NCBI GenBank assembly: GCA_026914155.1
Contig: JAPPGH010000026.1
Span: forward strand, 1-64,000
Source: Candidatus Palauibacter rhopaloidicola
Lineage (GTDB): Bacteria > Gemmatimonadota > Gemmatimonadetes > Palauibacterales > Palauibacteraceae
DNA: 64,000 nt
Reading direction: 5' to 3'
Shown here: positions 17,780-34,520 of the stretch, one piece after another
Position numbering within the stretch: position 1 is the stretch's first letter
Layout: each line of letters starts with the position of its first letter
Position numbers and translations under genes: made by a program
The notes under the pieces: generated by a model
Database searches by the model: none
The model's input: only the letters and a program-made list of their open reading frames with translations
Told to the model about the DNA's origin: nothing

Positions 17780-17793
17780 GGAGGGAGCGGCTC

Positions 17794-18141: not shown

Positions 18142-18756
18142 CTAGATGAGATAGACGATCGTGAACAGGATGATCCACACGAGGTCGACGAAGTGCCAGT
18201 AGAGGCCGAGCACCTCGATCCCGTGCGTGTTGTCCGCACCCCAGTGCCCCCGCCAGGCGCGAATCGTGGCCCACGCGAGGCAGATCACGCCGAGCAGGAC
18301 GTGGAAGCCGTGGAAGCCCGTCATCGTGAAGAACGTGGCCCCGTACAGCCCCGCGGCGGGCGTGAACCCGTGGCTTCCCTGCCAGGACTTGTGCAGCACG
18401 AGTTCGATGTACTCGTAGACCTGTACGCCGAGGAACGTGGCGCCGAGCAGGGTCGTCAGCAGCAGATAGAGCTTGATCCCGCGCTGGTCGCCCTCCTGCG
18501 CGGCCGCGAACGCCTTCACCATCGTCACCGAGCTGCAGATGAGGAGGAAGGTGTTGAAGGCCGTCACCGGGACGTTCAATACGTCCCCGGGCTCCGCCCA
18601 CGTGTCGGCGGCCCCGAAGCGGAGGACGACGTACGAGCCGATGAGGCCCGCGAAGAACATCACCTCCGAGCACAGAAACACCCACATTCCCACCTTCTGG
18701 GTGTAGACATCGAGCCCTCTCTCGGGGACCCGGCCCGCGGTCGCGGCGTGTGCCAT
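18142..18756 (-). CDS. ctaE: Cytochrome c oxidase subunit III
   Basis: 204 residues, seven transmembrane helices. Family motifs: KVGMWVFLCSEVMFFAGLIGSY near the N-terminus, MTGFHGFHVLLG with the conserved His residues, and YWHFVDLVWIILFTIVYL at the C-terminus. The Glu in CSEVMFF is the conserved acidic residue of the lipid cavity. It forms part of the A-type heme-copper oxidase with ctaD and ctaC, in the inner membrane. Confidence 0.96.
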   Translation of the reverse strand: MAHAATAGRVPERGLDVYTQKVGMWVFLCSEVMFFAGLIGSYVVLRFGAADTWAEPGDVLNVPVTAFNTFLLICSSVTMVKAFAAAQEGDQRGIKLYLLLTTLLGATFLGVQVYEYIELVLHKSWQGSHGFTPAAGLYGATFFTMTGFHGFHVLLGVICLAWATIRAWRGHWGADNTHGIEVLGLYWHFVDLVWIILFTIVYLI

Positions 18757-20562: not shown

Positions 20563-21234
20563 TCACTGGGCGGCGGCCGGCGCCTGGCTGGCCTGCCAGG
20601 CGTCGAAATCCGCCGCGCTGTGCACGGTCACGCTCGCCATCATGTAATAGTGGCCGAGGCCACACAGTTCGGCGCACGCGATCTCGAAGTTCCCGGTCTG
20701 GGTTGCGTCGAACCACACCGGGATGGTCATGCCCGGCACCGCATCCTGCTTCACGCGCAGTTCGGGGATGAAGAAGGAGTGGATCACGTCCTCGGATTCC
20801 AGCAGGATCGTGATGTCCTCGTTCACCGGGAAGTGAAACTGGTTGCGGACGGTGAAATCGTCCGCCGTCCCCAGCGTCTCGTCCACTCCCGGGTAGGTGA
20901 TGTTCCACTCGAACTGCTTGCCGACGACGAGGAACTCGAGCGCGTCCGCGGGGCGGTTGGAGCTTCCCTTGATGTCGTCCCACACGAGGGCCGAGTATGC
21001 GCCGAGGACCGCGATGATGATCGCGGGGACCACCGTCCAGATGATCTCCAGCCGGTTCGATCCGTGTGTGTAGTGCGCTCTGGCTCCTTCGCGTCCCCGG
21101 TACTTGAAGCAGAACCAGACGATCCCGCCCTCCACGAGGAGGAACGCGATGCCGGTGATGACGAGGATGATCCAGAACAGCTGGTCGATCACGACGCCGA
21201 ATGTCGAGTAGTTCGGGGGCAGCGCCCAATCCAC
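20563..21234 (-). CDS. ctaC: Cytochrome c oxidase subunit II (CuA)
   Basis: 223 residues. Two N-terminal transmembrane helices precede a periplasmic cupredoxin domain that receives electrons from a cytochrome c or cupredoxin. The CuA ligands are a first His in DVIHSFFIPEL and the CAELCGLGHYYM cluster (Cys, Glu backbone, Cys, His, Met). There is no C-terminal cytochrome c domain, so this is an aa3 rather than a caa3 enzyme, and the electron donor must be separate. Candidates are the cytochromes c and the cupredoxin-like lipoprotein encoded just upstream. Confidence 0.96.
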   Translation of the reverse strand: MDWALPPNYSTFGVVIDQLFWIILVITGIAFLLVEGGIVWFCFKYRGREGARAHYTHGSNRLEIIWTVVPAIIIAVLGAYSALVWDDIKGSSNRPADALEFLVVGKQFEWNITYPGVDETLGTADDFTVRNQFHFPVNEDITILLESEDVIHSFFIPELRVKQDAVPGMTIPVWFDATQTGNFEIACAELCGLGHYYMMASVTVHSAADFDAWQASQAPAAAQ

Positions 21235-21324: not shown

Positions 21325-22185
21325 TTACTGGGTGCGCTCCACCCGGATGCGGTTCGTTCCGTGCTCAAGGACGAGCGCGTCGCCCATAGGGACCTCGGCG
21401 CCCGTCATCTCGCCGTTGTAATCGAACGAGGCCATGGCCGTCTCGCCCGCCGTGACGGTCACGTTCGCCGTCATCGTGCCGAACTCCTCGTGCCACGCCG
21501 TCATCGTGTAGTCACCGGCGGGGACGTTGGCGATCGAGTAGCTCCCGTCGGCGCCCGTCACCGCGAAGTACGGGTGGTCGACGACGCCGATGTACGCCTG
21601 CATCCAGCCGTGCACGTCGCAGCGCACGGGCACCATCACCTCGGCCACCTGGAAGCGCTGCGTGCTCGTGATCCCCGCCCGGGGCTGGCTGATATTGAAG
21701 CCGCGGTTCTCGGTCGGGGTGGCGTTGATGTTGTGGAGCAGGTTGTCGCTGTTCGAGATCTCGATGTCCTGGCCGCTCTGCACGCCGAGCACGTGCGGCG
21801 TGTAGCGGCAGTTCACCTGGTCGAGCGCCGCGGCGCCGGATGCGGCCGGCGCGCCGGAGACACCCTCGCTCAGGTAGACGAACACGTTGGCGAGGCCGCC
21901 ATCGGACACGAGGACGTTCTGGGCCATGGGCCCGTCCGCACCGTAGCCGGCGGCGCAGTCCGCCTCGGCCGCCATGTCGATGGCCTCCATCGTCGGGACC
22001 ATCCCGCCGAAGTTCGCCATGCCCGATATGGTGCCGACGGTCGACGGATCCACCGCGGCGGCGGCCGGCGCCGCTTCGCCCGCGTCGTCCGCCGCTTCCG
22101 ACGAACCGCCATCGCCGCCACCACAGGCGGCCATCGCCGTGACGGCCAGCAGGGCGGCCGAACGGTTCCAGAAATGCGATCGCAT
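21325..22185 (-). CDS. Cupredoxin-like lipoprotein with carboxypeptidase-regulatory-like fold region
   Basis: 286 residues. The signal peptide ends in a lipobox (VTAMAAC), followed by an acidic/Ala linker, so it is an exported lipoprotein. Residues about 120-215 resemble a cupredoxin: YTPHVLGVQSGQDIEISNSD, then a His in NLLHNINA, then VPVRCDVHGWMQAYIGV with Cys-His-Met in type-1-copper spacing. A short carboxypeptidase-regulatory-like segment (GADGSYSIANVPAGDYTMTAWHE) follows. The likely role is carrying electrons between the cytochrome complex upstream and the CuA oxidase downstream. Copper binding is inferred from the ligand pattern. A GGAGG lies eight bases before the ATG. Confidence 0.8.
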   Translation of the reverse strand: MRSHFWNRSAALLAVTAMAACGGGDGGSSEAADDAGEAAPAAAAVDPSTVGTISGMANFGGMVPTMEAIDMAAEADCAAGYGADGPMAQNVLVSDGGLANVFVYLSEGVSGAPAASGAAALDQVNCRYTPHVLGVQSGQDIEISNSDNLLHNINATPTENRGFNISQPRAGITSTQRFQVAEVMVPVRCDVHGWMQAYIGVVDHPYFAVTGADGSYSIANVPAGDYTMTAWHEEFGTMTANVTVTAGETAMASFDYNGEMTGAEVPMGDALVLEHGTNRIRVERTQ

Positions 22186-22247
22186 TGACTTACCTCCGTA
22201 CTGAAAGCTGTTGCGCTATCGGCTGTTGAGAGCCCTTCCCCGTTGTT

Positions 22248-23828
22248 TCATCCATCTCTCCGGCGATCCTGGGCCCGGCGCACGAGAACGAGACCGAAGG
22301 CCCCCGTCAAGAGCATGGCCAGCAGGGGCGTCACGACGACCGTGCTGGATGCCGGAGGTTCGAGCAGAATGTAGTACCACGTGCTCACGGAACTTCGCTT
22401 TCCGACCTCGGCGCTGGACCCGTCCCACGCCTGGAACGCGATGGGCGTCGGCGTCCCCTCGGCGAAGTCGAGGCCGTCGCTTTCGACCTCGATCGGACGG
22501 CGGAGATAGAGCGTCCAGCGCCCTTCCTCCCACGTCGCTTCTCCCGTTACCGGGTCCTCCGCGAGCGGTTCGACGGAGTCGAGGCCGCGGCCGCGTCCCG
22601 CGCCGACCCCGGTCCCCGAATCCCACGTCCACAGGTAGACCGGCTCGCGGGCGTCTCCCATCAGGAAGTACGGCCGGTCGGTGCCCTCCGGCATTTCGAA
22701 GGGGAACTGGAGGAGCACCGCATCCGGGGGGCGCACGGTCGGCGCGCCGGCGCTGTCGAGGGCGATGGGTTCCGCGCCGTCCAGGTCGAGCGCGGCCGTG
22801 ATCTTGTCCTGCCACTCGTCCCAGTTCGGGTCCGGGCTGTTCGACGGGTCGTTCCACTGCACGCGCAGCGCGATGTCGTTTCCGTCGTGGAGCCCCTGGA
22901 CCCAGAGTCCGTCGACCGTCGGCGCGAAGTTGCGCGGCACCTGCACGACCTGGCCCGACATCGGGAAGTAGAAGGCCTCGACGCCCGCCCACGCCTCCTC
23001 GCCGCCATCCGCCGGCAGCCCGCCTTCGGCGCGGCCCACGCGGATCACTTCCCGCAGCGGCGGCATCTCGCGCGGCCCCATCGAGGCGAGGTAGTGCGCC
23101 AGTTGCCAGACCTCATCGGGCGAGACGACGCCCGAGTTCATGGCGTCGATCGCCGACGGCATCGGCGTGCCGTCGAGCCCCGTCAACATCCGGGTGTGCA
23201 TGTCCTCGACGCTGCTGCCGCCGTTCAGGACCCATGCCTCCGTGAGGTCGGCGGCGCGAATGGGGAGGCCACGCCAGTCCTCCAGCGTCGGCGCCGAGGT
23301 CCCATCGCCGCGCCCGGACAGGCCGTGGCACTCCTCGCACAGCATCGTGAGGTAGGCCGCCGCCCCCGCCTCGATCGCGGCGGGACCGCCGCCGGGGTCC
23401 GAGCCGAATTCCAGCGGCTCCGGGGCCGGGCCCTGGCCGAAGAACCTCGAGAAGCTCTTCAGGTAGACGATGAGGTCGTCGATCTCCCCGTCCGTGAGGT
23501 TGGGCCAGCCCGGCATCGTCGTACCGGGGAGCCCGTTCTCGATCGCGAACCGGATGTCCGCGTCCGTCGGGAGCTGTCCGCTCCCGGTCGTCCGGATCTG
23601 GTAGAGCGCCTGCGTGAAGTCCCGTGGCCGGGGCAGCATCGAGGCGGCGGCGGAGCCATCGCCCTGCCCCGTCTCGCCATGACATTCCGCGCACCAGCGG
23701 TCGTACACGACCTTGCCCGCGGCGGCCGCGTCCTCCTGCGCCGACAGCGGGGGCGCGGCGGAAAGGGCGAGGATGGCGAACCCGCCAAGCGCGAGCGTCC
23801 CGAGGGTCCCGCGTCGGAGCGCCCTCAT
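22248..23828 (-). CDS. Diheme cytochrome c fused to an ethylbenzene-dehydrogenase-type heme-b-binding domain
   Basis: 526 residues. The signal peptide (cleavage near 31) is followed by two cytochrome c domains (C46-AE-C49-H50 and C164-EE-C167-H168). Residues about 280-490 match the EB_dh fold that binds heme b in the gamma subunit of ethylbenzene dehydrogenase relatives; candidate axial ligands are a Met in YFLMGDA and a Lys in EVGKRSSVSTWY. A C-terminal transmembrane helix (about 497-518) anchors it, facing the periplasm. Fusing two c-type hemes to a b-type heme domain gives a wired electron-transfer subunit. ATG 23828 overlaps the upstream cytochrome stop (ATGA). It is the last gene of the three-cytochrome run. 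Confidence 0.85.
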   Translation of the reverse strand: MRALRRGTLGTLALGGFAILALSAAPPLSAQEDAAAAGKVVYDRWCAECHGETGQGDGSAAASMLPRPRDFTQALYQIRTTGSGQLPTDADIRFAIENGLPGTTMPGWPNLTDGEIDDLIVYLKSFSRFFGQGPAPEPLEFGSDPGGGPAAIEAGAAAYLTMLCEECHGLSGRGDGTSAPTLEDWRGLPIRAADLTEAWVLNGGSSVEDMHTRMLTGLDGTPMPSAIDAMNSGVVSPDEVWQLAHYLASMGPREMPPLREVIRVGRAEGGLPADGGEEAWAGVEAFYFPMSGQVVQVPRNFAPTVDGLWVQGLHDGNDIALRVQWNDPSNSPDPNWDEWQDKITAALDLDGAEPIALDSAGAPTVRPPDAVLLQFPFEMPEGTDRPYFLMGDAREPVYLWTWDSGTGVGAGRGRGLDSVEPLAEDPVTGEATWEEGRWTLYLRRPIEVESDGLDFAEGTPTPIAFQAWDGSSAEVGKRSSVSTWYYILLEPPASSTVVVTPLLAMLLTGAFGLVLVRRAQDRRRDG

Positions 23829-24622
23829 TCGTGGCCCCCTTCCCCTTCTTCCTCCCACGTGCGCGGCGTGAACCCGGTCTGGTCGTAGAGATAGAGGATC
23901 GTTGCCCAGATTTCGTCCTGCTCGAGGATCGTCTCCCAGGCCGGCATGGCCGAATCCCACGGCGTCCCCTCGCGCGGGAGGCCGGGGCCGCCCTTGACGA
24001 TGCGCCAGAACACGTAGCTCTCGGTGAGCTGGGGCAGGTTGCCCGAACTCGTGAAGTCGGCGGGGACCGGGTTGAAGGCCGGCGCGTAGTGTCCCTGGCC
24101 GTCGAGCAGGTCGCCGTGGCAGGGCACGCAGTTGCGGACGTAGATCCGCTTTCCGACCGCCAGGTGCTCCTCGATGGAGCCTTCCTCGTGCAGCGGGTTC
24201 TCGAGCCCCGTGAGTTCGATCGTCTCCCCCCGGAAGGTGAGCTGGTTCGGCGGCGCGGGGTGCACGGAGCGCAACGTGGCCGGCGCCGCGTAGCTCGGCC
24301 TCACGTTCTGATAGGCGAGCCAGCCGATGAGAACCGGAAGCGCGACCATGAGGATCCCCCGCAGCGTCTTCCGGTCGCGCGCGACCATGGTCTCGTGGAT
24401 CGGTTTCTTGAAGCTCTTCCAGCGCGCTTCGTCCGCGCTCATGTAGAGGACGATGCCGACCAGGACGGTGAGCATGTACTGGAGGATGACCGAACTCGGC
24501 ACGGGAGCGCTCGCCACGCCGATCACCGGGAGCACGTATCCGATCACCCACTCGAACGCCACGTAGGACACGACGATGACGATCGCGCCCTGCCAGAACG
24601 GATGGGACAGGTAACGCTTCAT
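23825..24622 (-). CDS. Membrane-anchored monoheme cytochrome c
   Basis: 265 residues. The N-terminal part has three hydrophobic helices (about 11-30, 43-61, 89-104) with a basic cytosolic loop, followed by a periplasmic cytochrome c domain with C165-VP-C168-H169. A distal Met is available in SAMPAWETIL. The membrane part resembles the anchors of quinol- or oxidase-linked cytochromes rather than a simple signal anchor. The gene overlaps both neighbours by four bases, so the three cytochromes are probably made in fixed ratio and assembled together. It could act as the docking subunit for the CydA-like protein, in place of the missing CydB (inference). Confidence 0.88.
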   Translation of the reverse strand: MKRYLSHPFWQGAIVIVVSYVAFEWVIGYVLPVIGVASAPVPSSVILQYMLTVLVGIVLYMSADEARWKSFKKPIHETMVARDRKTLRGILMVALPVLIGWLAYQNVRPSYAAPATLRSVHPAPPNQLTFRGETIELTGLENPLHEEGSIEEHLAVGKRIYVRNCVPCHGDLLDGQGHYAPAFNPVPADFTSSGNLPQLTESYVFWRIVKGGPGLPREGTPWDSAMPAWETILEQDEIWATILYLYDQTGFTPRTWEEEGEGGHE

Positions 24623-25464
24623 CGGCTACCTCCCGCGCTGTCGGGCGGGACTTCCGCCGCGTCGCCCGGAGCCTCCGCGCCGCCTCCCGCGCCGACCCCG
24701 CCGGTGGCGAGGAATTCCACCAGAGCATCCAGCTCCGCAGGCGACATCATTTGGGCCAGAGCGGGCGACATCGTTCCGGCAAACGCTTGGTAGTCGGGGT
24801 TGATGGTCGCGTTCGGGTCGACGATGCTCTCGCGAATGAACGCCGGATCCTGGCCGCGCAGATCTTCAAATGGGGGAGCGACCATGCCGCCCACGCCGCC
24901 AATGGCGTGACACGCCAGACACTGCTGAGCCTCGATGATCGCCATCCCATCCAACTGGCTCGGGTCGGTGACGGCGACAGGCGGCGGTGCGGATTCGGCC
25001 GCGTCGTCGGCCGCCAGCGCCGCGGCGAAGTCGTCCGCGCTCACCGTGATCTCGCCGCCCTGCGATTCCAGGAAGGCGACGAGCGTCCACAGTTCGGCCT
25101 GCGACGAAAGGATGCTCTGATCGATCATGATGGGGTCGAAGCCCTCCACGATGTAGGCCGTCGGGTTGACCAGAGACTCCCAGAGATAGTCCTTGCAGCT
25201 TTGCCCCGGGACGCGCGTCGCGCACACGCCGCCCACCACCCCGAGGAGGTCCGGAGCGCGCGTGCCGAGGCCGTGGCACGCCGTGCAGCCGCCCGCCCCG
25301 GCGTAGATCTCCTCGCCGATCGCCGCCAGTTCCTCGGGCGGCATGTCCGCGCTGAGCACGATCTCCCGGGGGACCGCCGACTGGACCTGCGGGATCACGT
25401 TCGCCACGAAGGTGAACACCGCCAGCGTCGCCACGACCGTGAACAGGATCTTCAGGTTCGTCAT
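24619..25464 (-). CDS. Membrane-anchored diheme cytochrome c
   Basis: 281 residues. One N-terminal helix (about 5-25) anchors two cytochrome c domains: C60-TA-C63-H64 and C181-LA-C184-H185. Candidate distal Met residues lie in MIDQSILS and GTMSPALAQMMSPAE. Two extra cysteines (about 80 and 89) between the domains could form a disulfide. It starts the cytochrome run 79 bases after the CydA-like gene, in the same direction. The start is the ATG at 25464. Confidence 0.88.
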   Translation of the reverse strand: MTNLKILFTVVATLAVFTFVANVIPQVQSAVPREIVLSADMPPEELAAIGEEIYAGAGGCTACHGLGTRAPDLLGVVGGVCATRVPGQSCKDYLWESLVNPTAYIVEGFDPIMIDQSILSSQAELWTLVAFLESQGGEITVSADDFAAALAADDAAESAPPPVAVTDPSQLDGMAIIEAQQCLACHAIGGVGGMVAPPFEDLRGQDPAFIRESIVDPNATINPDYQAFAGTMSPALAQMMSPAELDALVEFLATGGVGAGGGAEAPGDAAEVPPDSAGGSR

Positions 25465-25543
25465 CTACTCTTCCCGTCCTCGCACCACCGTCGTCGAGTC
25501 CCCGCTCCGGGCCATCGTCCGTCCCCGCTCCCGGTCATCGCCG

Positions 25544-27364
25544 CTAATCCACGTCGCCCAGGGAGGGCGCCGGCATCGCGTCTCCGAGCGCGGCGCGCCC
25601 CTCCCGTCCGGCCGTCACCTTCGCCTCCGCCTCCTGGTACACGGAGCGTTCGGCCAGGCCGCCGAGCCAGAATATGAATCCGACGAGCGCGAAGAAGATG
25701 AGCACACAGATGCTGATGATCGTCGCCGCGGGCCCGAGAGCCGGCGTGAACGCCTGCTCGCTCGTGTCCCGGATCACTTCGTAGACGTGCCAGTGCTGCC
25801 GGATCCCGCTGCGCGCGAAGCCCATCAGCCCCATGAGCCACGTAAACGTGACGGCCAGGATGAGGAGCGCGTACTGGGACCGATCCGGCATCCGCCCCCA
25901 CCGGATCTCGCCCCGGGATTTGGCGCCCCGCAGCATCGCCATGTCGATCCCGATGACGAACAGGATCGTCGCCAGGACCGCGAGCACCTGGTAGACGGAG
26001 AAGCCGATCCGCACGATCGCGGTCACGAAGTATCCGTACACGCCGTAGAACACGACGATGACGGCGCACAGCGCGAAGGCCGCCCCCTGCAGCATCGTTC
26101 CCGCGCGCGCCCACGGCACCACGGGATCCTTGTTCGCCCTCCGGTACATGAGGAAGGAGAGGAATGTCGTCAGGATCATCAGGTTGACGGCCGTGTTCTT
26201 CGCGCTCATCACCCCGAGCACCTGCAGGAACGGGTGCCGGATCCCTCCCATGGCCGCGATCTCGTCCCGGTCTGCGATCATCGTGTTCGGCGTGGCCCAC
26301 ACGATGACCCCGAGGACCAGCACGAGCAGCATCCACTTGATGTAGGGCTGGAACCGTTCCGCCCCCGGAATCCGCCCCATCCCGATCCAGAGGTAGTAGT
26401 TGCCCGCGAGGAAGAGGATGCCGATGAGGAAGGCCTGGATGATCCAGAGCCAGCTCATGAAGCCGCCCATCATCGTGATGCCCATCTGCTGGCTGAACTC
26501 GTAGATCTCGCGTCCGAGCCAGTAGCCGGCGAAGGGGAGCACGATGAGCGCGCCGATCGCGATCAGGTTGCCGGTGTAGCCCATCCAGTCGTAGTGCGCG
26601 CGTTCCTCGTCGGTCTTGCTCGTGAGGAAGCGGTACGCCGCGTAGGCGCCGACGATCGCGCCGCCGAACACCACGTTCGCCAGCAACCGGTGGATGTTGA
26701 TCGGCATCCAGGTCGCGTTGTTGATCGCGCTCCACAGCTGGACGGTCTGCGGGGCCGTGTCCGCCGTGAGTCCCTCGGGCGGACTCATCATGTAGGTGAG
26801 CCACCCGTTCGCGATGAACATGACGATCGTGCCCCACACGTTGAGCATGATCCCCAGGCACCAGTGGGCCTTCTTCGCCGCGCCCTTCTTCCACGCGTCC
26901 CACCCGTAGTAGTAGAGGTAGAGCGTGAACGATTCGAGGAAGAAGAGGCCGGCGTACACCCACATCGACGGCGCGAAGATCGCCGTCAGGTACGCCCAGA
27001 AGCGCGGGTAGAGCGTCGAGAGGAAGAAGACGAGGATCGCGCCCCAGATCGCGGTCGCGCTGTAGGCCACGAGCAGGAGGCGGGTGAATTCCTTCGCGAG
27101 CTTGTCGTACTTCTCATCCCCGCCGAACATCCCGATCGCCTCGATGACGACGGCGAACATCGGCACGCCGAGGACGAAGGCGGCGAACAGCAGGTGGAGC
27201 TGGGCCGCGATCCAGACCGCGCCGCGACGGTCGAGCCCGAGGAAGTTGAACTCCCCGTAGTCGGGTCCCGGCGCCTGCGCGAGGAGCGGGATGGCAACCG
27301 CCAGCGCGAGGGCGGCGAGCAGCACGCCGCGGGTCGCGACGCCACGGGTAAACCAGCGCTTCAT
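25544..27364 (-). CDS. CydA-like bd-family oxidase subunit I, non-canonical
   Basis: 606 residues. The N-terminus adds a signal-like helix (about 13-29) before the bd-type core. Conserved with CydA: a His in AQLHLLFAAFVLGVP (H57), a Glu in FFLESFTLYLYYYGW (E144), the ANGW stretch, and a His in NIHRLLANVVFG (H225). Departures: where CydA has the heme b558 Met (FRIMVG) this protein has VRIGFS, and where CydA has the AEYGRQPW quinol-loop motif this one has ARSGIRQHW. No CydB is encoded nearby; cytochromes c follow instead. It is probably a membrane oxidase or electron-transfer subunit that takes electrons from c-type hemes. The ATG overlaps the radical-SAM stop (ATGA), an intimate coupling with a cofactor-type enzyme. 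Confidence 0.85.
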   Translation of the reverse strand: MKRWFTRGVATRGVLLAALALAVAIPLLAQAPGPDYGEFNFLGLDRRGAVWIAAQLHLLFAAFVLGVPMFAVVIEAIGMFGGDEKYDKLAKEFTRLLLVAYSATAIWGAILVFFLSTLYPRFWAYLTAIFAPSMWVYAGLFFLESFTLYLYYYGWDAWKKGAAKKAHWCLGIMLNVWGTIVMFIANGWLTYMMSPPEGLTADTAPQTVQLWSAINNATWMPINIHRLLANVVFGGAIVGAYAAYRFLTSKTDEERAHYDWMGYTGNLIAIGALIVLPFAGYWLGREIYEFSQQMGITMMGGFMSWLWIIQAFLIGILFLAGNYYLWIGMGRIPGAERFQPYIKWMLLVLVLGVIVWATPNTMIADRDEIAAMGGIRHPFLQVLGVMSAKNTAVNLMILTTFLSFLMYRRANKDPVVPWARAGTMLQGAAFALCAVIVVFYGVYGYFVTAIVRIGFSVYQVLAVLATILFVIGIDMAMLRGAKSRGEIRWGRMPDRSQYALLILAVTFTWLMGLMGFARSGIRQHWHVYEVIRDTSEQAFTPALGPAATIISICVLIFFALVGFIFWLGGLAERSVYQEAEAKVTAGREGRAALGDAMPAPSLGDVD

Positions 27365-28773
27365 CGCTTCTCCCCCCGTCCCGCGCTCCGCCGCCTCCGG
27401 GCGAAGAAGGGCATCCGTTTCGAGAAGTCCACCGGCATGGCCCGGCGGACCTCGGTCATCGCGTCGATCGTCACCTCGGCGTGCCCGCGCTCGCGCGCGA
27501 ACTTCTCCACCCGTTCCGCCACCACGCCGCGCACGAAGCTGGGGATGGCGTTGAGCCGGGCGGCGGCCTCGGCGCTCCACGGAAGCTCCCGCTCGACCGC
27601 CGCACCGTAGGTGACCGGCTGCGGAGGCTGGATCGCGTCCGCGATGCCGGGCGCCGGCTCGTAGCCGCAGGAAGGATCGGGACCGAGCAGGTCTCCGTCC
27701 ACCGCGTAGGCGCGGGCGCGGCAGCCGCCGCACAGCGCGCGGTACTCGCAGCGTCCGCACTTTCCGCCCGGTTCACCCTCGCGCAGCAGGCGGAAGACGG
27801 TCGCCTCGCGCCAGATCTCGCCGAAGGACGCGTCCGAGAGGTCGCCGGCGACCTCCGGCATGTACGGACACGGCGTCACCTTGCCCTCGGGCGTGATGCG
27901 GCAGTACTGGACGCCGCAGGGGCAGCGCGTCCGGTAGTTCAGGAGCGGCGAGTCCGGATCCTGTTCGTACACGTGCCGCATGAGTTGCGGCTGGCACTTG
28001 GAGCGGATCATGAGCCGCCCGCGGTAGTCTCGCTGGAGTTCGGTCAGCCGGGCCACGATCTCGTCGTTCTCCGCGGGGGCGAGGCCGCGCATCCGCTCTC
28101 CCCGGCCCGTCTCGACGAGGAAGTAGACGTTGAGGCAGACCGCGCCCTTCGCATCCGCCCAGGCGGCGATGGCATCGAGTTCGCCCCGGTTCCCGCGCGT
28201 GACGGTGAACTGGATGAGGAAGTCGAGACGGTGCTCCGCCAGCCGGTCCACTGCGGCGAGCGTGTCCTCGAGCGCGCCCTCGCCGTGCCGGAAACGGTCG
28301 TGATAGCGCGGGTCGAGGGAGTCGACGCTCAGGGCGACGCCCTGCACGCCGGCCGCCTTCAGCGAGGCGATGCGGTCATCGGTGAGCCGGGTGCCGTTCG
28401 TGCCCACGGTCACGGTGGCGCCGCGTTCGGAGGCATAGCCCGCGATCTCCTCGAGGTCGGAGCGCACGAGGGGCTCGCCCCCGCTGAGGATGAGGAGCGG
28501 CGACGGGCTCGTTTCGAGGATCTGGTCGATGACGCGGAAGCAGGTCGCGGTATCGAGTTCCTCCTCGGACGCGTGCCACGACCCGGCCGAGATGTAGCAG
28601 TGGGAGCAGGCGAGGTTGCAGCGGCGCGTCAGGTTCCACGCGATCACGTGAGGGATCGCGACATCGGGTTCGGCCCGCGGAGACGCGGCGGCGGGGGCGC
28701 CGTCCCAGAGCGGACCAGGTGCGGCGGGGCTCCGGTGCGTGACGGCTTCCGCGGCCAGCGGGGCCCCGGTCAC
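27361..28773 (-). CDS. NirJ/AhbD-like radical SAM protein with SPASM cysteines and a PCP_red-type C-terminal domain
   Basis: 470 residues. The radical SAM Fe-S site is C52-x3-C56-x2-C59. A GGEPL motif follows near 98-102. A rich C-terminal Cys set (284, 286, 291, 302, 339, 342, 348, 351, 369) fits a SPASM or twitch domain with auxiliary Fe-S clusters, as in the heme d1 and siroheme-pathway enzymes NirJ and AhbD that alter tetrapyrrole side chains. Residues 398-450 (PWSAEAAARLNAIPSFVRG onward) match a small domain also present in two neighbours and similar to the C-terminus of light-independent protochlorophyllide reductase. Substrate unknown; a modified heme for the adjacent CydA-like subunit is my proposal. 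GTG 28773 overlaps the upstream stop as GTGA. Confidence 0.88.
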   Translation of the reverse strand: MTGAPLAAEAVTHRSPAAPGPLWDGAPAAASPRAEPDVAIPHVIAWNLTRRCNLACSHCYISAGSWHASEEELDTATCFRVIDQILETSPSPLLILSGGEPLVRSDLEEIAGYASERGATVTVGTNGTRLTDDRIASLKAAGVQGVALSVDSLDPRYHDRFRHGEGALEDTLAAVDRLAEHRLDFLIQFTVTRGNRGELDAIAAWADAKGAVCLNVYFLVETGRGERMRGLAPAENDEIVARLTELQRDYRGRLMIRSKCQPQLMRHVYEQDPDSPLLNYRTRCPCGVQYCRITPEGKVTPCPYMPEVAGDLSDASFGEIWREATVFRLLREGEPGGKCGRCEYRALCGGCRARAYAVDGDLLGPDPSCGYEPAPGIADAIQPPQPVTYGAAVERELPWSAEAAARLNAIPSFVRGVVAERVEKFARERGHAEVTIDAMTEVRRAMPVDFSKRMPFFARRRRSAGRGEKR

Positions 28774-31031
28774 TTCGGGCGCGGTCCCTGCTCCGAAGCG
28801 GGACGGACGTCCGCTCCCGACTCTTCTCCCAGTTCCGTACGCGCGAACTTCTCGACCGCCGCTCGGGCATCGTCGGGCGACACCATCTTGAAGTCGACGG
28901 GACAGTCCGCCGCCTGCTGCTCGATGTCGCGGATCGGACAGCGCGTCACACCGGAGGCCTTCGCCTCCTCGATGAAGCGCTTCATCTCCTCGCTCATGCC
29001 GTCGACGCCGGCGGCTTCGGCCCGCGCCTGCTTCGCCTTCAACTCGTTGAACATCACGAGCATCGTGTCGAGGTCGAACTCGTCGGCCGCGATCATCGCG
29101 TCCTTGTTCTCGTCCATCACGACGGTGGTCACGCGCCACATGCCCTGGTCGCGGGCGAAGCGCTCCACCGTGTTCCGGGCGAGGGGACGGGCGATCAGCG
29201 GCACGCGCCCCAGGCGTTCGAACGCCTCGTGCGTCCAGACGATCGGGTCGGCGGCCGTGCGGTCGCGCGGAATCTGGTTGTCCGTGACCGGGCACTGCGC
29301 CATCACGGGCAGCGGGGCCTCGAAGGCGTCGGCGTCGCTCGTCTCCACGACCGTCCGCTTCATCGCCTCGTCCGCCTTCACCTCGGCGAGGGCGAGTTCC
29401 TCCGCATCGCCGATCCCCATCACGAGCTGCATGTGGGTCGGAAGAAGCTTCTTGATCGCCTCGTCGAGGCGTTCGTTCGTCACGACGGGCAACTGGTCGC
29501 GATTCCAGAGTTCCGACTTGTCGGCGCTCGCGCGCCCGTTGGCGGCCTGTCCGACCTCCGCGATCGACGGGGCCGCGCCGGTCTCCAGCGCATCGCGCGC
29601 CACCTGCGCCGTGCCGCTCGCCCCGTTGCCGGCCGCGGCGTCTCCATCGGCCGGCGGCGACGCCGCCCGGTACTGCTTCTCGTCCTTCGGATTCGGGACG
29701 AAGGCGGCGGCATAACGGCTTCCGGGGCCGTAGTGTTCGAGGACGAACTCCTCGACGGCCTTGCGCGCGATCCCGAGGGCGAACGGCGGCACGCGCAGGA
29801 TCCTCACCTCCGCTTCGGGCGCCCACTCGAGCCCGGCTTCGCCATCCTCCTCGATCCAGGGGATCTCCTCGGGCCGGACGTTCCCGGTGCCGAGGAGGAG
29901 GATGTTCGTGTCCGCAAGGGAGACGAGGTTGTCGGCCTGCGAGCCGAGGTCCGTGCCCTCGATGCGGTGCGAGCCGTGACGGGCCACGACGATGAGGGAT
30001 GGATCGATCTCCTCGGCCCATTTGAGGAGTACGTCGAACGGCTTCCCGACCAGCACCTGGGTCTCGATCTCGACGTCGGGATACTCGCTCGCCATCACCT
30101 GGGCCCGCTTGATGTTCGCCTTGCAGAGACGGAGGAGGCCCTTGTCGATGATGTTGTTATGGAGCTCTTCCTGTTCCTCGAACTTGAACACCTTCGAGGC
30201 CTGGACGGAGAGCACGTCCTTGATGTTGTGGAAGACGACGTGGTGGTACTGCACGTCGAAGGCGCTCGCGATGTAGACCTTGGCGCCGTACTCGCGGGCC
30301 ATCTCGAGCGCGATTCGCAGTCCCTTGTAGGCGTAGGCCGACCCGTCCACGCCGACGAGCCACTTCCCGCCGTCGAGGGGCCGCCCGTCGCGGACGATGA
30401 GCGCATCCTTCTCGATCCCGCGGAGCGCGCGCGCCACAACGCCGCCGAGGCGGCTCCGCTCCTGCCGCCCGAGACCATGGGCGCCGATGGCGACGAGGTC
30501 GTAGTCGCGGCCGGAGGTGCCCGCGAGCTTGTCCTCCTCCTCTTCGTCCTCGGCCACGAGCCGGCCGTTATCGCCCAGCTTGACGTCCGTGCGCTGTTTC
30601 TCGCTGCCGTCGTAGTTGTGGGCGATGTTGGGGTCGAAGCCAATGAGGCTGGGGAGACGTCCGCCGCCGCGGTTCGCCTCGTTGATGATCTCCTCGTAGT
30701 TGATGCCTTCGAGGAGCTGCCGCGTGAGCGTCACCCCGGCTTCGGCGCAGCGGCGGTGGAGCTGGTCCAGGAAGCTGTCGGAGATGAGCTGCAGCCCCTT
30801 CTCGATCAGCTTGTCGTGGATCTTGCGCTGCCTGCGGATCTCCGCCGGTTCCTGGAACTGGGCCGGGAGCCCGATCTCGAGCTGGCGGAACCGGATGTCG
30901 TGGAGACGTGCGGCGTAGACATGAGAGCCGGTGATGCGGCCTTCGGAGCGAGCGCAAAGTTCGATGGCTCGGTCCACGGCCCAGTCCGACTCGCGCGAGT
31001 TATCGACCGGGACGAATACCTCTCGATACAT
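28770..31031 (-). CDS. Tandem universal-stress-protein domains fused to PCP_red-like domains
   Basis: 753 residues. Two USP (UspA) folds occupy about 2-215 and 222-382; the second ends in VVARHGSHRIEGTDLGS and NILLLG, like ATP-binding USPs. The first contains a charged insert (about 140-172). Behind them come one weak (401-435, RILRVPPFALGIARKAVEEF) and one clear copy (599-650, HEAFERLGRVPLIARPLARN and beyond) of the PCP_red-like module, then a tail with CP motifs near 580 and in the last 60 residues. Such fusions may regulate or chaperone tetrapyrrole chemistry; no function is proven. I chose ATG 31031; an upstream in-frame ATG adds 12 unlikely residues. The stop overlaps the radical SAM gene. 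Confidence 0.85.
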   Translation of the reverse strand: MYREVFVPVDNSRESDWAVDRAIELCARSEGRITGSHVYAARLHDIRFRQLEIGLPAQFQEPAEIRRQRKIHDKLIEKGLQLISDSFLDQLHRRCAEAGVTLTRQLLEGINYEEIINEANRGGGRLPSLIGFDPNIAHNYDGSEKQRTDVKLGDNGRLVAEDEEEEDKLAGTSGRDYDLVAIGAHGLGRQERSRLGGVVARALRGIEKDALIVRDGRPLDGGKWLVGVDGSAYAYKGLRIALEMAREYGAKVYIASAFDVQYHHVVFHNIKDVLSVQASKVFKFEEQEELHNNIIDKGLLRLCKANIKRAQVMASEYPDVEIETQVLVGKPFDVLLKWAEEIDPSLIVVARHGSHRIEGTDLGSQADNLVSLADTNILLLGTGNVRPEEIPWIEEDGEAGLEWAPEAEVRILRVPPFALGIARKAVEEFVLEHYGPGSRYAAAFVPNPKDEKQYRAASPPADGDAAAGNGASGTAQVARDALETGAAPSIAEVGQAANGRASADKSELWNRDQLPVVTNERLDEAIKKLLPTHMQLVMGIGDAEELALAEVKADEAMKRTVVETSDADAFEAPLPVMAQCPVTDNQIPRDRTAADPIVWTHEAFERLGRVPLIARPLARNTVERFARDQGMWRVTTVVMDENKDAMIAADEFDLDTMLVMFNELKAKQARAEAAGVDGMSEEMKRFIEEAKASGVTRCPIRDIEQQAADCPVDFKMVSPDDARAAVEKFARTELGEESGADVRPASEQGPRPK

Positions 31032-31173
31032 GGCGCTCCGTTGGACGGCGTGCTGCGGCCGGTTCACGCTGCTCGCACCAGCCTCGCCCGGGTGCCAAGC
31101 CCGGATGTACGCAGTCCGCGAGAATCGGCCACGGACGAGGAATTCGGCGACGCTGGGCCAAGGTTGTCGGGGC

Positions 31174-31190
31174 TTCCGGAAGGTCCGGAA
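31174..31190. repeat. Inverted repeat upstream of the USP/radical SAM/CydA-like operon
   Basis: TTCCGG and CCGGAA flank a five-base centre in the 213-base gap between the ABC permease end and the USP gene start. No T-run adjoins it. Its place about 145 bases before the start codon suits an operator or a small leader stem. I see no clear promoter in the gap. Confidence 0.4.
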
Positions 31191-31244
31191 CTCCTCTTAT
31201 GCGCCAAGAAGGTGCGGCTGCCCATAGGGAAAGTCAAACGGGGA

Positions 31245-31952
31245 CTAGGGAGTCCGCGGCCAGCGGAGGCGGCGGCTCCAATCCGAGGCGAAAACGGCGG
31301 CCCCGAAGGTCACGCCGGCCGCGACGAGAAGGCTGCGGAGCCAGACGGAAGTGTCCATGGGCATCCCGACGGTGCCCGCCGTGAGCGCGGCCCGAAGCGG
31401 CGTGTACGGATTCCACTCGGCGACCAGGGATGTCCAGCCCGGAGCGGGGGTCCGAAAGAAGCCGGCGAAGTGCAGGAGGAGGAGGGAAAACGCGGCGGAG
31501 GCGAGGGCCGCTTCGGCGAGCGAACGCACCGCGGCGGCCACCAGCGGACCCAGCAGATTCGCGAACCACAGCGTCGCGAGGACCGACAGGAGGACAACGG
31601 GTCCAGCGCCGGCGCCGCCGGCAGACCACAGGAGGACGAGAACCGCGGGCGCGAGTTGCAGCGCGTCGATGGTCGTGCCGGCGAGGGTGCGCTCGAGGAG
31701 CCAGCGGGGCGCGGAGTAACCGGTGCGAAGGATCTCGTCGAGCCAGCCGTCGCGGGCGTCGCGCACGGCGGGGATGGCCGAGCCGAAAGCCCCGAAGAAG
31801 ACGATGAACACGCCGAAGACGGCGACCCGGTGCGGCGCCGCGGCTGCGCTGAGGGCGACGGGCGTGAGGAGGAGGAGCGGGACCGCGACGTTCCACAGGA
31901 ACAACCGCCGCCGCCGGAGGGCGGTCCGCCACGCCAGGCGCCAGATCGTCAC
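31245..31952 (-). CDS. ABC transporter permease of the heme-exporter (CcmB/ABC-2) type
   Basis: 235 residues, six hydrophobic helices, starting with a basic WRLAWRTALRRRR segment. Size, topology and a partner ATPase without extra domains resemble CcmB of the cytochrome c maturation exporter. There is an extracytoplasmic DARDGWLDEILRTG loop after helix 2. CcmB has a comparable amphipathic stretch, but I cannot exclude a general ABC-2 permease. The GTG start overlaps the ATPase stop as GTGA. Its position among tetrapyrrole and cytochrome genes supports export or insertion of a heme-type cofactor. Confidence 0.8.
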   Translation of the reverse strand: MTIWRLAWRTALRRRRLFLWNVAVPLLLLTPVALSAAAAPHRVAVFGVFIVFFGAFGSAIPAVRDARDGWLDEILRTGYSAPRWLLERTLAGTTIDALQLAPAVLVLLWSAGGAGAGPVVLLSVLATLWFANLLGPLVAAAVRSLAEAALASAAFSLLLLHFAGFFRTPAPGWTSLVAEWNPYTPLRAALTAGTVGMPMDTSVWLRSLLVAAGVTFGAAVFASDWSRRLRWPRTP

Positions 31953-32896
31953 GGGGCGCGCGCTTCCAGACGTCGGCCCGTGAGCGTCGCGAAGGCGTCC
32001 GCGAGATCGGGCTCCCGGACGTCGACCGAGGCGACGGAGGCGCCGCCGCGCAGGACCCAGGCCAGCGTCTCGGGGAGGGCCCGGCTCGGGTCCTCGACCT
32101 CGAGTATCACCGCGCCCTCGTCCCGGGACGACGCGCACACCGCCTCCGGGGCGGGGCCGAGGGTGTCGGGATCGGGACTCTGCCCGGCGGCAAATCGGAT
32201 CTCCACGCGCGGACGGGCGCCGACGCGCTCCAGAAGGCGCGCCGGGGTGTCCGCCACCGCGCAACGGCCGTCGACGATGAAGGCGACCCGGTCGCAGTAC
32301 GCCGCGGCGAAAACGGGATCATGGGCGGACAGCACGGCGGTTCCCCCGGCCGCGCGGTGGTCGGCGAGGACCTCGGCGAAGGCCTCCCGCCCGCCGGGGT
32401 CGAGTCCGGCCAGCGGTTCGTCGAGGAGGAGGAGCGGGGCCGCGGTACCGAACGCGGTCGCCAGCGCAAGCCGTCTCCGCATGCCGCTCGAATAGGCCCC
32501 CGCGGGGCGGTCCGCGTCCGCCTCGAGCCCGAAGCGGGCGAGCCATGCGTCCGCCGTGGCCCGCGCCTCACCGGGTCGGGCGCCGTGCAGTTCGAGCAGG
32601 ATGGCCGCGTTCTCCCGCCCGCTGAGCCATGTGCGGAGGGCGGGCCGGTCGGGGGCGAGCCAGCGCTGTCCGGCGTCATCGACCCCGGGGTCCCGCCGAA
32701 TCCCCGGTGCGCCGTCGCCGCCGAGCAGGCGGAGGAAGGTGGACTTACCGGATCCGTTCGGGCCGAGGAGGGCGAGGCGTTCTCCCGTCTGAACCTCGAG
32801 CGAGAGATCCCGCAGGGCGGGACTCCCATCGGGGTAGCGGTAGGCGACCGCCTCCACCGTCACCAGCGGCAGCTTCACCCCTGGTCCGGGGTTCAC
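31949..32896 (-). CDS. ABC transporter ATP-binding protein (CcmA-like) with C-terminal extension
   Basis: 315 residues. Walker A LLGPNGSGKST, signature AYSSGMRRRLALA, Walker B LLLLDEPLAGLD and H-loop LSAHD are all intact. The short P-loop to signature distance and the bare ATPase-permease pair recall CcmA. About 100 residues follow the ATPase core (RPRVEIRFAAG onward, ending in DLADAFATLTGRRLEA), as in ABC-2 drug/polysaccharide exporters rather than CcmA, so the family call is open. GTG 32896 overlaps the ferredoxin stop; a second GTG seven codons on is an alternative. Confidence 0.88.
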   Translation of the reverse strand: MNPGPGVKLPLVTVEAVAYRYPDGSPALRDLSLEVQTGERLALLGPNGSGKSTFLRLLGGDGAPGIRRDPGVDDAGQRWLAPDRPALRTWLSGRENAAILLELHGARPGEARATADAWLARFGLEADADRPAGAYSSGMRRRLALATAFGTAAPLLLLDEPLAGLDPGGREAFAEVLADHRAAGGTAVLSAHDPVFAAAYCDRVAFIVDGRCAVADTPARLLERVGARPRVEIRFAAGQSPDPDTLGPAPEAVCASSRDEGAVILEVEDPSRALPETLAWVLRGGASVASVDVREPDLADAFATLTGRRLEARAP

Positions 32897-33183
32897 GGAA
32901 CGATCTCGATCCCGTCTTCCAGGACGGTGATCGCGTCGACCGGACAGGACGCGCACGCCTCGACGAAACGCTTCCGCGAGGCATGCTCCGGTTCGGTGAA
33001 CACGGCCACCCCATCCTCGTCGAGGTCGAAGGCCTCCGGCGCTTCCTCGATGCAGTCCCCGAAGCCGACGCACAGGTCGCGGTCGATGACGGCGCGGAGT
33101 CCGTGCACTTCCCGTTCCACGGTCGGGTCCGGCGCCGCCGCCCCTTCACGCGCATCTGCCACGCCTCCGCCGCCGTCCGTCAT
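32893..33183 (-). CDS. Small ferredoxin, probably 3Fe-4S type
   Basis: 96 residues. The motif C38-VGFGD-C44 lacks the middle Cys of a 4Fe-4S site (F at that place), and the C-terminal part has C77-x2-C80-P81. Three cysteines (38, 44, 80) in this pattern are typical of 3Fe-4S ferredoxins of the P450-reducing kind; C77 is an extra that could complete a cubane. The AFDLDEDG stretch in the middle is a family hallmark. It is a likely electron donor for the radical SAM enzyme or for a redox step in cofactor making. The stop overlaps the ABC ATPase start as GTGA; it begins six bases after the zinc-ribbon gene. Confidence 0.9.
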   Translation of the reverse strand: MTDGGGGVADAREGAAAPDPTVEREVHGLRAVIDRDLCVGFGDCIEEAPEAFDLDEDGVAVFTEPEHASRKRFVEACASCPVDAITVLEDGIEIVP

Positions 33184-33189
33184 CGCCGG

Positions 33190-33633
33190 CTACATGCCTT
33201 CCAGTCCGAGATCGGACCGGGCCCGGTCCATGACGGCGGGCGTCATCTCCTCGATCCCGCGCTCACGGGCGTATTCGTTGTAGATCTTCTTCACCATCCC
33301 CCGCACGAAGGAGGGTACGTGGCCGAGGCGCTCGACCGCGTCCACGTTCCAGCGCACGGGTCCGGGGTTCGTCAACGGCGGTGCGGGCAAGGCTTCGTCG
33401 CGCGCCTCCGCCACGCCGGCGCGGATGCCCTCGAAGTTCTCGTTCGGGACGGTGCGGCCTCCCACCTTCACGCCGAGCGAACTCACGAGTTGCGTCTCCA
33501 TGGGGTTGGCGAGCATCGCCGTCTTGCGCCCGCAGGCGGGACACCTGAAGACGGCGGCCATCGTGCCGTCGCCGGGCACGGCCCGCTCGTCGAAGGCCAT
33601 CTGCCGGTCGCAGTCCACGCAGAGGAACTTCAT
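33190..33633 (-). CDS. Zinc-ribbon protein with PCP_red-type C-terminal domain
   Basis: 147 residues. The N-terminal treble-clef-like ribbon has C5-VD-C8 and C31-PA-C34. Residues about 95-140 (RWNVDAVERLGHVPSFVRGM and on to YARERGIEEMT) form the same module seen in the radical SAM and USP proteins of this cluster, close to the protochlorophyllide reductase 57-kDa domain. It is perhaps a small carrier or adaptor for a tetrapyrrole; no function is known to me. The ATG overlaps the Mrp ATPase stop (ATGA), suggesting those two work together. Confidence 0.85.
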   Translation of the reverse strand: MKFLCVDCDRQMAFDERAVPGDGTMAAVFRCPACGRKTAMLANPMETQLVSSLGVKVGGRTVPNENFEGIRAGVAEARDEALPAPPLTNPGPVRWNVDAVERLGHVPSFVRGMVKKIYNEYARERGIEEMTPAVMDRARSDLGLEGM

Positions 33634-34520
33634 TGCGCCCTGGGCGCCGCGCGAAGAACGTCGGCCACCTGCCGAAGCGCATCCGCGGCTCCGCCCCCGC
33701 CGGCCAGCCACCCCTCGAGCCGCCCCTCGTCCGCCGCGGCCCCCAGCGCCGCGTCGAACGGGATGCGCGCGAGCAGCGGGACCCGAAACCGTCCCGCCAG
33801 CTCGGCCCCCGCGTCGCCGGCGTGCAGCGGAGCGAGCGCTCCGCAGGCGTCGCAGCGAACTCCCGACAGGTTCTCGACGAGTCCCAGGATGGGGAGGCCG
33901 CGGCTCCGGGCGAGATCGAGCGAGCGGGCCACAGCATCGCGGGACGCCGCGCTCGGGATGGTGACCGCGACGATGCCCGCCAGTCCGGGGACGAGCGCGT
34001 GGAGTTCCGCGAGCCGCTGGGTGCCCGGCGGCAGGTCCACGATGAGCGCGTCCAGTTCTCCCCACGCGACATCCCCCAGGAATTCCCGCAGGGCCCCCCG
34101 CTCCTGGGCGCCCCGCCACACGAAGCCGGCGTCGGCCGGCTCGCGCCAGGTGAGCGCGCGGTCCGGCTCCACGAGGAACGCCATCGACATGACGCGGACC
34201 CCGGCGCGCGAAGCGGGCGGCGCAAATCCGTCCCGGGATTCGGCGAGGGGTTCCGGTTCGACGCCGAGAAGGCGCGGCACGCTGGGGCCGTTGAGGTCCG
34301 CATCGACCAGGCCCACGCGATCCCCGCGGTGGGCAAGCGCGGTCGCGAGGAGGGCGGAGACGAGGCTCTTCCCCACGCCGCCCTTGCCGCTCATCACCGC
34401 GACGACGCGGGCGACGGAGGCGAGCCGCACGGACACGCGCTCGTCCCCGGCCGCGATCTGATCCGGGAGATCGGAACGCAGTTCGTCCACTTCGTGGTAG
34501 GTGCGAAATCCGGAACTCAT
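33630..34520 (-). CDS. Mrp/NBP35-family P-loop ATPase
   Basis: 296 residues. The deviant Walker A motif SGKGGVGKS (about 44-52) carries the two lysines of the MinD/Mrp class. A DADLNGPSVPRLLG block, the IVDLPPGT motif and a CDAC pair (VRCDACGAL) near residue 220, as in Fe-S carrier ATPases of the NBP35/ApbC group, are also seen. Such proteins load Fe-S clusters or act as nucleotide-dependent chaperones. A leading ATG at 34538 would add MELPLP; I prefer ATG 34520 because the extension has no match to the family. It is the promoter-proximal gene of the block that runs to ctaB. Confidence 0.9.
   Translation of the reverse strand: MSSGFRTYHEVDELRSDLPDQIAAGDERVSVRLASVARVVAVMSGKGGVGKSLVSALLATALAHRGDRVGLVDADLNGPSVPRLLGVEPEPLAESRDGFAPPASRAGVRVMSMAFLVEPDRALTWREPADAGFVWRGAQERGALREFLGDVAWGELDALIVDLPPGTQRLAELHALVPGLAGIVAVTIPSAASRDAVARSLDLARSRGLPILGLVENLSGVRCDACGALAPLHAGDAGAELAGRFRVPLLARIPFDAALGAAADEGRLEGWLAGGGGAADALRQVADVLRAAPRAQ

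Follow-up and report, generated by a model that had tools for sequence, protein, structure and literature searches.

What kind of membrane complex is encoded by a conserved gene block of Candidatus Palauibacter rhopaloidicola (Gemmatimonadota), and what is contributed to it by the radical SAM enzyme encoded in the same block? The block lies on the minus strand (34520 to 21325) of a stretch of 64 000 nucleotides from contig JAPPGH010000026.1, which was analysed at its full length and is called the window below. A first-pass annotation, made from the sequence alone, had described the block as a bd-like oxidase or electron-transfer complex with dedicated tetrapyrrole-modifying machinery. Its two central genes encode a CydA-like membrane subunit of 606 amino acids (aa) (25544–27364, minus strand; Cyt_bd_oxida_I, E=1.9e-21) and a radical SAM/SPASM/PCP_red protein of 470 aa (27361–28773, minus strand; Radical_SAM, E=3.6e-26; SPASM, E=1.5e-7; C-terminal PCP_red, E=1.2e-13). 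The answer proposed here, with slightly less than even confidence, is that an electron-transfer complex resembling those of the OR-N family (bd-like proteins described below) is coupled to the adjacent aa3 oxidase and served by a dedicated tetrapyrrole-handling module, the whole forming one functional unit.

The association of the two central genes was examined by searching 200 Gemmatimonadota genomes with the radical SAM protein and with the CydA-like protein. Matches were considered as orthologues at E<1e-130 for the radical SAM protein and at E<1e-200 for the CydA-like protein. Orthologues of both were found in an identical set of 52 genomes (the cluster genomes), and in all 52 the two genes shared a contig, with no more than 239 bases between them. 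In genome G084, the radical SAM gene was split across two contigs and the part adjoining the CydA-like gene was counted. This pairing is more than chance. Both genes were also absent from relatives of cluster-bearing genomes: from G125 (compared with G120 and G176), G077 (compared with G114), G101 and G117 (compared with G100) and G151 (compared with G192). G206, which comes from the same genus as the window's genome, was likewise without both. The pair is thus present or absent as a unit. Thirteen further genomes, including G160 and G016, gave weaker radical SAM matches and were left out of the orthologue count.

Conservation of the neighbourhood was scored in 80 loci. These were the best 80 of 295 relatives in a contig scan, which biases them to close relatives. 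Their titles were Gemmatimonadota names, the BD2-11 clade, HR33 and three 'Gammaproteobacteria' bins (L081, L082 and L083); the latter have the cluster, with a CydA-like protein of 77% identity, and are probably misnamed. There is overlap between the 200 genomes, these 80 loci and a set of 20 neighbourhoods, some contigs being identical. Only loci with enough flank, on the correct side of the best CydA-like copy, were counted. Upstream of the CydA-like gene, the radical SAM gene was found in 74/74 loci, the USP/PCP_red gene in 65/65, the zinc-ribbon/PCP_red gene in 54/56, the ferredoxin gene in 51/53 and the Mrp gene in 51/54. Downstream, the genes for a diheme cytochrome c (74/74), a monoheme cytochrome c (72/72), a cytochrome c/EB_dh protein (65/65) and a lipoprotein (61/61) were followed by those for CoxB (58/59), CoxA (51/51) and CoxC (49/49). 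The first-pass annotation had named, as a pattern that would contradict it, a CydA-like gene occurring in most genomes without the radical SAM, USP and zinc-ribbon genes. The reverse was found, with the radical SAM gene present in 52/52 genomes and the other two in nearly all loci counted above. Nineteen neighbourhoods of CydA-positive genomes, partly on the same contigs, agreed as far as they extend; the twentieth, that of G160, is an exception and is considered with the contrary evidence below.

Two rearranged loci were informative. In G223 (L160), the set is reordered; the CydA-like protein is 74% identical and the radical SAM protein is still present but 43% identical. The association therefore survives reordering and strong divergence of the enzyme. 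In L086 (5–6204), a tandem second copy of five genes, encoding the lipoprotein, a CydA-like protein (54% identity) and the three cytochromes c, lies upstream of the USP gene. Between this copy, at which the locus starts, and the USP gene there is no maturation or cox gene. This duplication marks a five-protein core.

The CydA-like protein was aligned with a profile of canonical Gemmatimonadota CydA using hhalign. Its N-terminal ~260 residues were aligned with 99.3% probability and 24% identity. Canonical H18, E106 and H183, which correspond to H19, E107 and H186 of E. coli, are matched by H57, E144 and H225. Together with H167, H377 and H526, the latter three are invariant in 32/32 CydA-like sequences; of the additional histidines, H167 aligns with an invariant canonical one. 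The alignment stops near residue 302 and the Q-loop region is unaligned; no recognisable quinol site was found by alignment to canonical CydA. The GRQP motif is absent in all 32 sequences, and Tyr137, invariant in the 32 rows, aligns, beside a one-residue gap, to canonical E98 (the E. coli E99 position). An AlphaFold model of medium confidence (pLDDT 63.9, pTM 0.53) has ~14 helices, and only cytochrome bd oxidase chains were retrieved at E<=0.001 when it was used in a fold search.

The window's genome contains one match only to PF01654 (CydA-type). Other CydA matches (25–31% identity, E<=1e-10) were found in at least 41 of the 200 genomes, 36 of these without the cluster; the 11 such matches that were inspected are canonical, with an invariant GRQPW. 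A canonical bd oxidase was rejected for the window's protein: the N-terminal ~260 residues are shared, but GRQPW is missing, the Q-loop is unaligned, Tyr replaces Glu at the E99 position and no CydB is encoded among the block genes scanned here. The first-pass annotation had pointed out that CydA binds hemes b and d. For the same three reasons (GRQPW, Q-loop and Tyr at E99), heme d is not implied for the window's protein.

What the protein keeps and what it lacks fit a kind that has already been described. Bd-like proteins encoded beside nitrite oxidoreductase (NXR) in Nitrospina, Nitrospira and Kuenenia have 14 helices and keep the heme ligands, their Q-loop is replaced and quinol residues are absent (PMC3578206). 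Their neighbours are mono- and diheme cytochromes c, a zinc-finger protein, cupredoxins and an NxrC-type subunit (PMC3578206). Such bd-like proteins were later put in the OR-N family, for which subunits, activity or oxygen affinity are unconfirmed (PMC10839748, PMC12342949); pairing of two CydA-type subunits, OR-N1 and OR-N2, is a hypothesis of the OR-N literature. The window's protein resembles OR-N in its CydA-type N-terminal half with ligand histidines (H57 and H225 in 32/32 rows), in the lack of a Q-loop and quinol site, in the ~14 helices of the medium-confidence model and in its adjoining cytochrome c partners (three genes here, the first of them, cytc1, in 74/74 loci). With ligand histidines kept and the Q-loop and GRQPW lost, its sequence is fitting for the known OR-N (bd-like) kind. 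Unlike the OR-N proposal, the window's genome has one CydA-like protein and no OR-N1/OR-N2 pair (a 54% tandem copy is found in L086). A further difference is the linkage to CoxBAC and to the radical SAM/PCP_red module, a module not mentioned for OR-N in the available text. This likeness was judged by motifs, helices, partners and the published description.

The NXR-linked set is resembled in the same way, by a bd-like protein, mono- and diheme cytochromes c, zinc-finger-type and cupredoxin-like proteins and an NxrC-type subunit. In contrast to that set, no NxrA/NxrB-like gene was found among the block genes scanned here, and the best match to a type II DMSO reductase alpha subunit in the window's genome reached 108.5 bits against a cut-off of 984.75. 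Judged by these features, the complex would be an OR-N-type or NXR-linked variant.

The genes downstream of the CydA-like gene encode three cytochromes c with five CXXCH motifs in total and one EB_dh domain. They are a membrane-anchored diheme cytochrome c (cytc1; 24619–25464, minus strand; Cytochrom_C, E=2.3e-10; CXXCH at 60 and 182), a membrane-anchored monoheme cytochrome c (cytc2; 23825–24622, minus strand; Cytochrome_CBB3, E=3.9e-8; one CXXCH) and a fusion of a diheme cytochrome c with an EB_dh (EbdC/NxrC-like) domain and a C-terminal anchor (cytcEB; 22248–23828, minus strand; Cytochrom_C, E=5.6e-19; EB_dh, E=2.1e-14). EB_dh is of the DMSO-reductase-II gamma type and its Pfam match in the third cytochrome is over the cut-off; the best NCBIfam match of this protein is TIGR03477 (E=3.3e-24, 85.4 bits against a cut-off of 169.85). 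A blue-copper-like lipoprotein with a C-terminal beta-sandwich domain is encoded next (21325–22185, minus strand). Its CxxHxxM motif was recognized by eye, and its Pfam matches are to beta-sandwich families only, in the C-terminal half.

As the first-pass annotation had noted, aa3 oxidase and heme O synthase genes come after the block on the same strand. CoxB, cytochrome c oxidase subunit II (20563–21234; COX2, E=4.1e-16), has a CuA-like motif, CAELCGLGHYYM, and no fused heme c, no CXXCH being found in it. CoxA, haem-copper oxidase subunit I (18781–20547; COX1, E=1.3e-151), CoxC, subunit III (18142–18756; COX3, E=1.5e-27), and CtaB, a heme O synthase-like UbiA protein (16856–17962; UbiA, E=4.1e-52), follow. 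Heme motifs, an EB_dh domain and a copper-like motif on anchored or lipobox proteins beside a CuA-type CoxB suggest that electrons pass to the aa3 oxidase.

The radical SAM protein was compared with NCBIfam models. The best scores were obtained with NirJ2 (269.6 bits), AhbD (266.2 bits) and TIGR04053 (247.6 bits), for which the cut-offs are 500, 500 and 395, respectively; the NirJ model gave 176.7 bits against a cut-off of 515.45. Peptide maturase models scored 147 (mycofactocin), 128 (WgkB) and 118 bits (PqqE), which places NirJ2 and AhbD ~120 bits above the mycofactocin and ~150 above the PqqE maturases. All 18 radical SAM proteins scanned matched AhbD, NirJ2 and TIGR04053 (best E 7.5e-92, 6e-90 and 1.4e-79, respectively), the mycofactocin and PqqE maturase models again scoring lower, and C52, C56 and C59 of the CxxxCxxC motif were invariant in 18 rows. 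The earlier description of the enzyme as NirJ/AhbD-like is kept as far as the best-scoring models are concerned, but all equivalog cut-offs examined were missed. With NirJ/AhbD the protein shares the radical SAM and SPASM domains, the CxxxCxxC motif and the best scores; it differs by an extra C-terminal PCP_red domain, by scores below the cut-offs and by the absence of PF17805 partners (0/52 genomes).

PCP_red, a domain of 45 residues, is common to the radical SAM protein, the zinc-ribbon protein and the USP protein, and is otherwise matched by BchB (protochlorophyllide reductase subunit B). The likeness to BchB/ChlB of the dark-operative protochlorophyllide reductase lies in this domain, here in three proteins; unlike in a full BchB/ChlB relative, the C-terminal PCP_red domain is the sole part matched. 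PCP_red matches were found in 73/200 genomes, namely the 52 cluster genomes, G160, G016 and 19 others. In 16 of these 19, the listed matches are in frames of 528–657 or 766 aa, which are BchB-like by length alone; of the remaining three, the frame is 143 aa long in G028, and the matches in G093 and G140 are weak. In the window, the USP/PCP_red protein of 753 aa is encoded at 28770–31031 (Usp, E=4.7e-30 in three stretches; PCP_red, E=5.1e-14 in two stretches) and the zinc-ribbon protein with its C-terminal PCP_red domain at 33190–33633 (PCP_red, E=1.6e-12, over the cut-off; two CxxC pairs in the sequence). The same upstream part, also on the minus strand, encodes a single-cluster ferredoxin (32893–33183; Fer4_13, E=1.3e-10) and an Mrp/NBP35-type P-loop ATPase of the Fe-S carrier family (33630–34520; Pfam ParA/NUBPL, E=1.4e-62). 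In L042 (3231–4712), the Mrp frame is 494 aa long, against 260–325 aa in the other loci compared.

The supply of ordinary heme b was examined separately. HemQ and ferrochelatase were each found in 49/52 cluster genomes and AhbA/B (PF17805, NirDL type) in 0/52; HemQ was found in 40/148 of the other genomes. The window itself has a HemQ gene on the plus strand (1861–2526; chlorite-dismutase family, E=4.7e-46), closely followed by one for an aromatic amino acid lyase (PF00221). Elsewhere in this genome, hemE and hemH are on contig C7 and the frame between them reads, by eye, as protoporphyrinogen oxidase. The cluster is independent of this heme b pathway. Since nearly all cluster genomes have their own heme b pathway, the radical SAM enzyme is free for another task. 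A role of the enzyme in siroheme-dependent heme synthesis was rejected on the AhbA/B and HemQ counts. In G022, G111 and G114, HemQ/ferrochelatase genes lie ~9–11 kb beyond the CydA-like gene. In L180 (5594–10917) and L182 (5775–10172), the cox genes are followed by genes for CtaB, a HemQ that carries a fused Rieske-type ferredoxin domain, HemE and ferrochelatase; L180 additionally has a protoporphyrinogen oxidase gene after the cox genes.

Four other readings were weighed, two of the module and two of the complex, so that their probabilities need not add up to one. The strongest of them, a possible but unlikely one, is that the radical SAM enzyme is an oxygen-independent coproheme decarboxylase (the AhbD reaction), which would back up HemQ at low oxygen and give ordinary heme b and no new heme. 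HemQ uses coproheme, the same substrate as AhbD, and is commoner in cluster genomes (49/52 against 40/148); AhbD is among the two best NCBIfam matches; and the module-bearing genomes G160 and G016 have ferrochelatase and no HemQ match. For AhbD, coproheme is the documented substrate (PMC7242693). This backup role is opposed by the adjacency of the radical SAM and CydA-like genes in 52/52 genomes, with HemQ and ferrochelatase encoded elsewhere, by 40 HemQ genomes without a radical SAM orthologue, and by the AhbD cut-off, which is not reached. The SPASM domain, present as in many maturases, and the scores of the mycofactocin, WgkB and PqqE models would also suit an enzyme that modifies a protein residue, for example by cross-linking the CydA-like subunit or a cytochrome, or by attaching a cofactor to it. 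We hold this to be improbable, given the ~120 bits by which NirJ2 and AhbD exceed the best peptide-maturase model and the match of PCP_red elsewhere to protochlorophyllide reductase subunit B.

As to the complex, it might itself be a cytochrome-c-oxidising OR-N oxygen reductase, the aa3 oxidase then being a separate enzyme. OR-N proteins are described as putative cytochrome-c-oxidising O2 reductases, and O2 reduction by the family is called unproven (PMC10839748, PMC12342949). His and Glu are conserved at the ligand positions; however, GRQPW is absent, Tyr stands at the E99 position, one CydA-type protein is found in the window's genome where OR-N is thought to pair two, and CoxA is linked in 51/51 loci, and we regard such a reductase as somewhat unlikely. 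The complex could also replace complex III in a chain from quinol to cytochrome c to aa3, which appears very improbable. The genes of the complex stand in front of cox genes, a place often taken by an act or bc operon. Cytochrome b (PF00033) was found in a smaller share of cluster genomes (16/52 against 96/148; Fisher p=3.7e-5, kinship ignored), and an ACIII-like role (alternative complex III) has been floated for the NXR-linked relatives (PMC3578206). Against this replacement, ActD of alternative complex III was found in 50/52 cluster genomes (192/200 overall) and a Q-loop or recognisable quinol site is lacking from the CydA-like protein. The ActD count indicates a complex that does more than fill a gap, and a stand-in for a missing complex III is not favoured. 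Unlike the ActD count obtained here, alternative complex III was reported in <10% of the genomes of a phylum survey by KEGG annotation (PMC9426454). An electron-transfer or energy-coupling complex is more likely than a free-standing bd oxidase.

In the preferred reading, an OR-N-like electron-transfer complex with its own tetrapyrrole-handling module, the CydA-like protein would be the membrane core and would act as an electron-transfer or energy-coupling subunit. The five predicted c-type hemes on the three anchored cytochromes, the EB_dh domain (probably with heme b) and the blue-copper-like lipoprotein would serve as carriers and would hand electrons to the neighbouring aa3 oxidase at its CuA site. 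The ferredoxin would feed the radical SAM/SPASM/PCP_red enzyme, with Mrp possibly as its iron-sulfur carrier. This enzyme and the PCP_red proteins of the zinc-ribbon and USP types would alter and/or install a tetrapyrrole for the CydA-like subunit. We infer heme as the substrate, the CydA-like protein as its destination and the direction of electron flow. A more far-reaching proposal, possible rather than probable, is that the CydA-like core, and perhaps other OR-N complexes too, carries a heme whose side chains have been altered by the PCP_red radical SAM enzyme. PCP_red would then be a general tetrapyrrole-handling domain, and the three proteins that share it here would relay the pigment from the enzyme to the complex. 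The dedicated module put forward in the earlier interpretation, and the co-occurrence on which its check relied, are retained in this scheme; the role of the ABC pair is not.

Several points weigh against the preferred reading. None of the NCBIfam equivalog cut-offs examined is reached by the radical SAM protein, and TIGR04053, whose name assigns no function, comes close to the two best models in score (248 bits). The AlphaFold model of the CydA-like protein is mediocre and too weak for heme placement, and a modified heme in the complex is a prediction from gene content. In L136 and L086, the Mrp, zinc-ribbon and ferredoxin genes are missing within 10 kb upstream, a stretch occupied in L086 by the tandem core copy, and L065 is without Mrp. 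A divergent set of USP/PCP_red, Mrp, zinc-ribbon/PCP_red and radical SAM genes is present in G016 (L161 1–9644; contig C1, 9.6 kb). G160 has a radical SAM protein with 45% identity and, on another contig, an Mrp–zinc-ribbon–ferredoxin set that ends at the contig edge. A CydA-like gene was looked for in both genomes and none was found; from its presence in G016 without such a gene, the module may serve other targets. Finally, the evidence comes from one phylum, Gemmatimonadota, and the 52 genomes share descent, so that the counts are not independent events.

All twelve genes of the block were found by coordinates and Pfam scans with the domains given in the first-pass annotation. Read 5' to 3', they encode Mrp, the zinc-ribbon/PCP_red protein, the ferredoxin, the ABC ATPase, the ABC permease, the USP/PCP_red protein, the radical SAM protein, the CydA-like protein, the diheme cytochrome c, the monoheme cytochrome c, the diheme cytochrome c/EB_dh protein and the blue-copper-like lipoprotein, followed by CoxB, CoxA, CoxC and CtaB. 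Most junctions had been said to be 4-base overlaps. Such overlaps are real at Mrp/zinc-ribbon, ABC/ABC, USP/radical SAM, radical SAM/CydA-like, cytc1/cytc2 and cytc2/cytcEB, but these are 6/11 by the window coordinates, about half. Across loci, the median junction was -4 at Mrp/zinc-ribbon (57 loci), USP/radical SAM (74 loci) and radical SAM/CydA-like (79 loci).

The ABC ATPase (31949 to ~32875, minus strand, 5' end approximate; ABC_tran, E=6.4e-21) and the ABC-2 permease (31245–31952, minus strand; ABC2_membrane, E=1.7e-11) were found in 22/56 loci with enough flank and were missing from 34/56. The pair is therefore optional and was rejected as a core part, and its supposed task of moving or inserting the cofactor was not borne out. 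Most loci lacking it have a short gap there, and a small membrane protein is encoded in some of the longer ones. A membrane-protein-like frame of ~120–150 aa was seen between the zinc-ribbon and USP genes of L077, L079–L083, L087, L090, L116 and L118, where the ABC pair is missing.

A literature search covering titles and abstract openings, mainly of open-access articles, gave no report of a PCP_red radical SAM module inherited jointly with such a complex. The cluster is not mentioned in the parts covered of two phylum surveys (PMC9426454, PMC10469786), and no relatives of it were found in the viral contigs scanned. OR-N complexes are held by the major nitrite oxidisers, and the available accounts describe their subunits, activity and oxygen affinity as unconfirmed. 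A maturation gene that is co-inherited with the complex offers a direct route, first to the substrate of the enzyme and then to its product within the complex. Should a new heme exist, the respiratory chemistry of these organisms would need to be revisited, and PCP_red would have a role beyond the making of chlorophyll.

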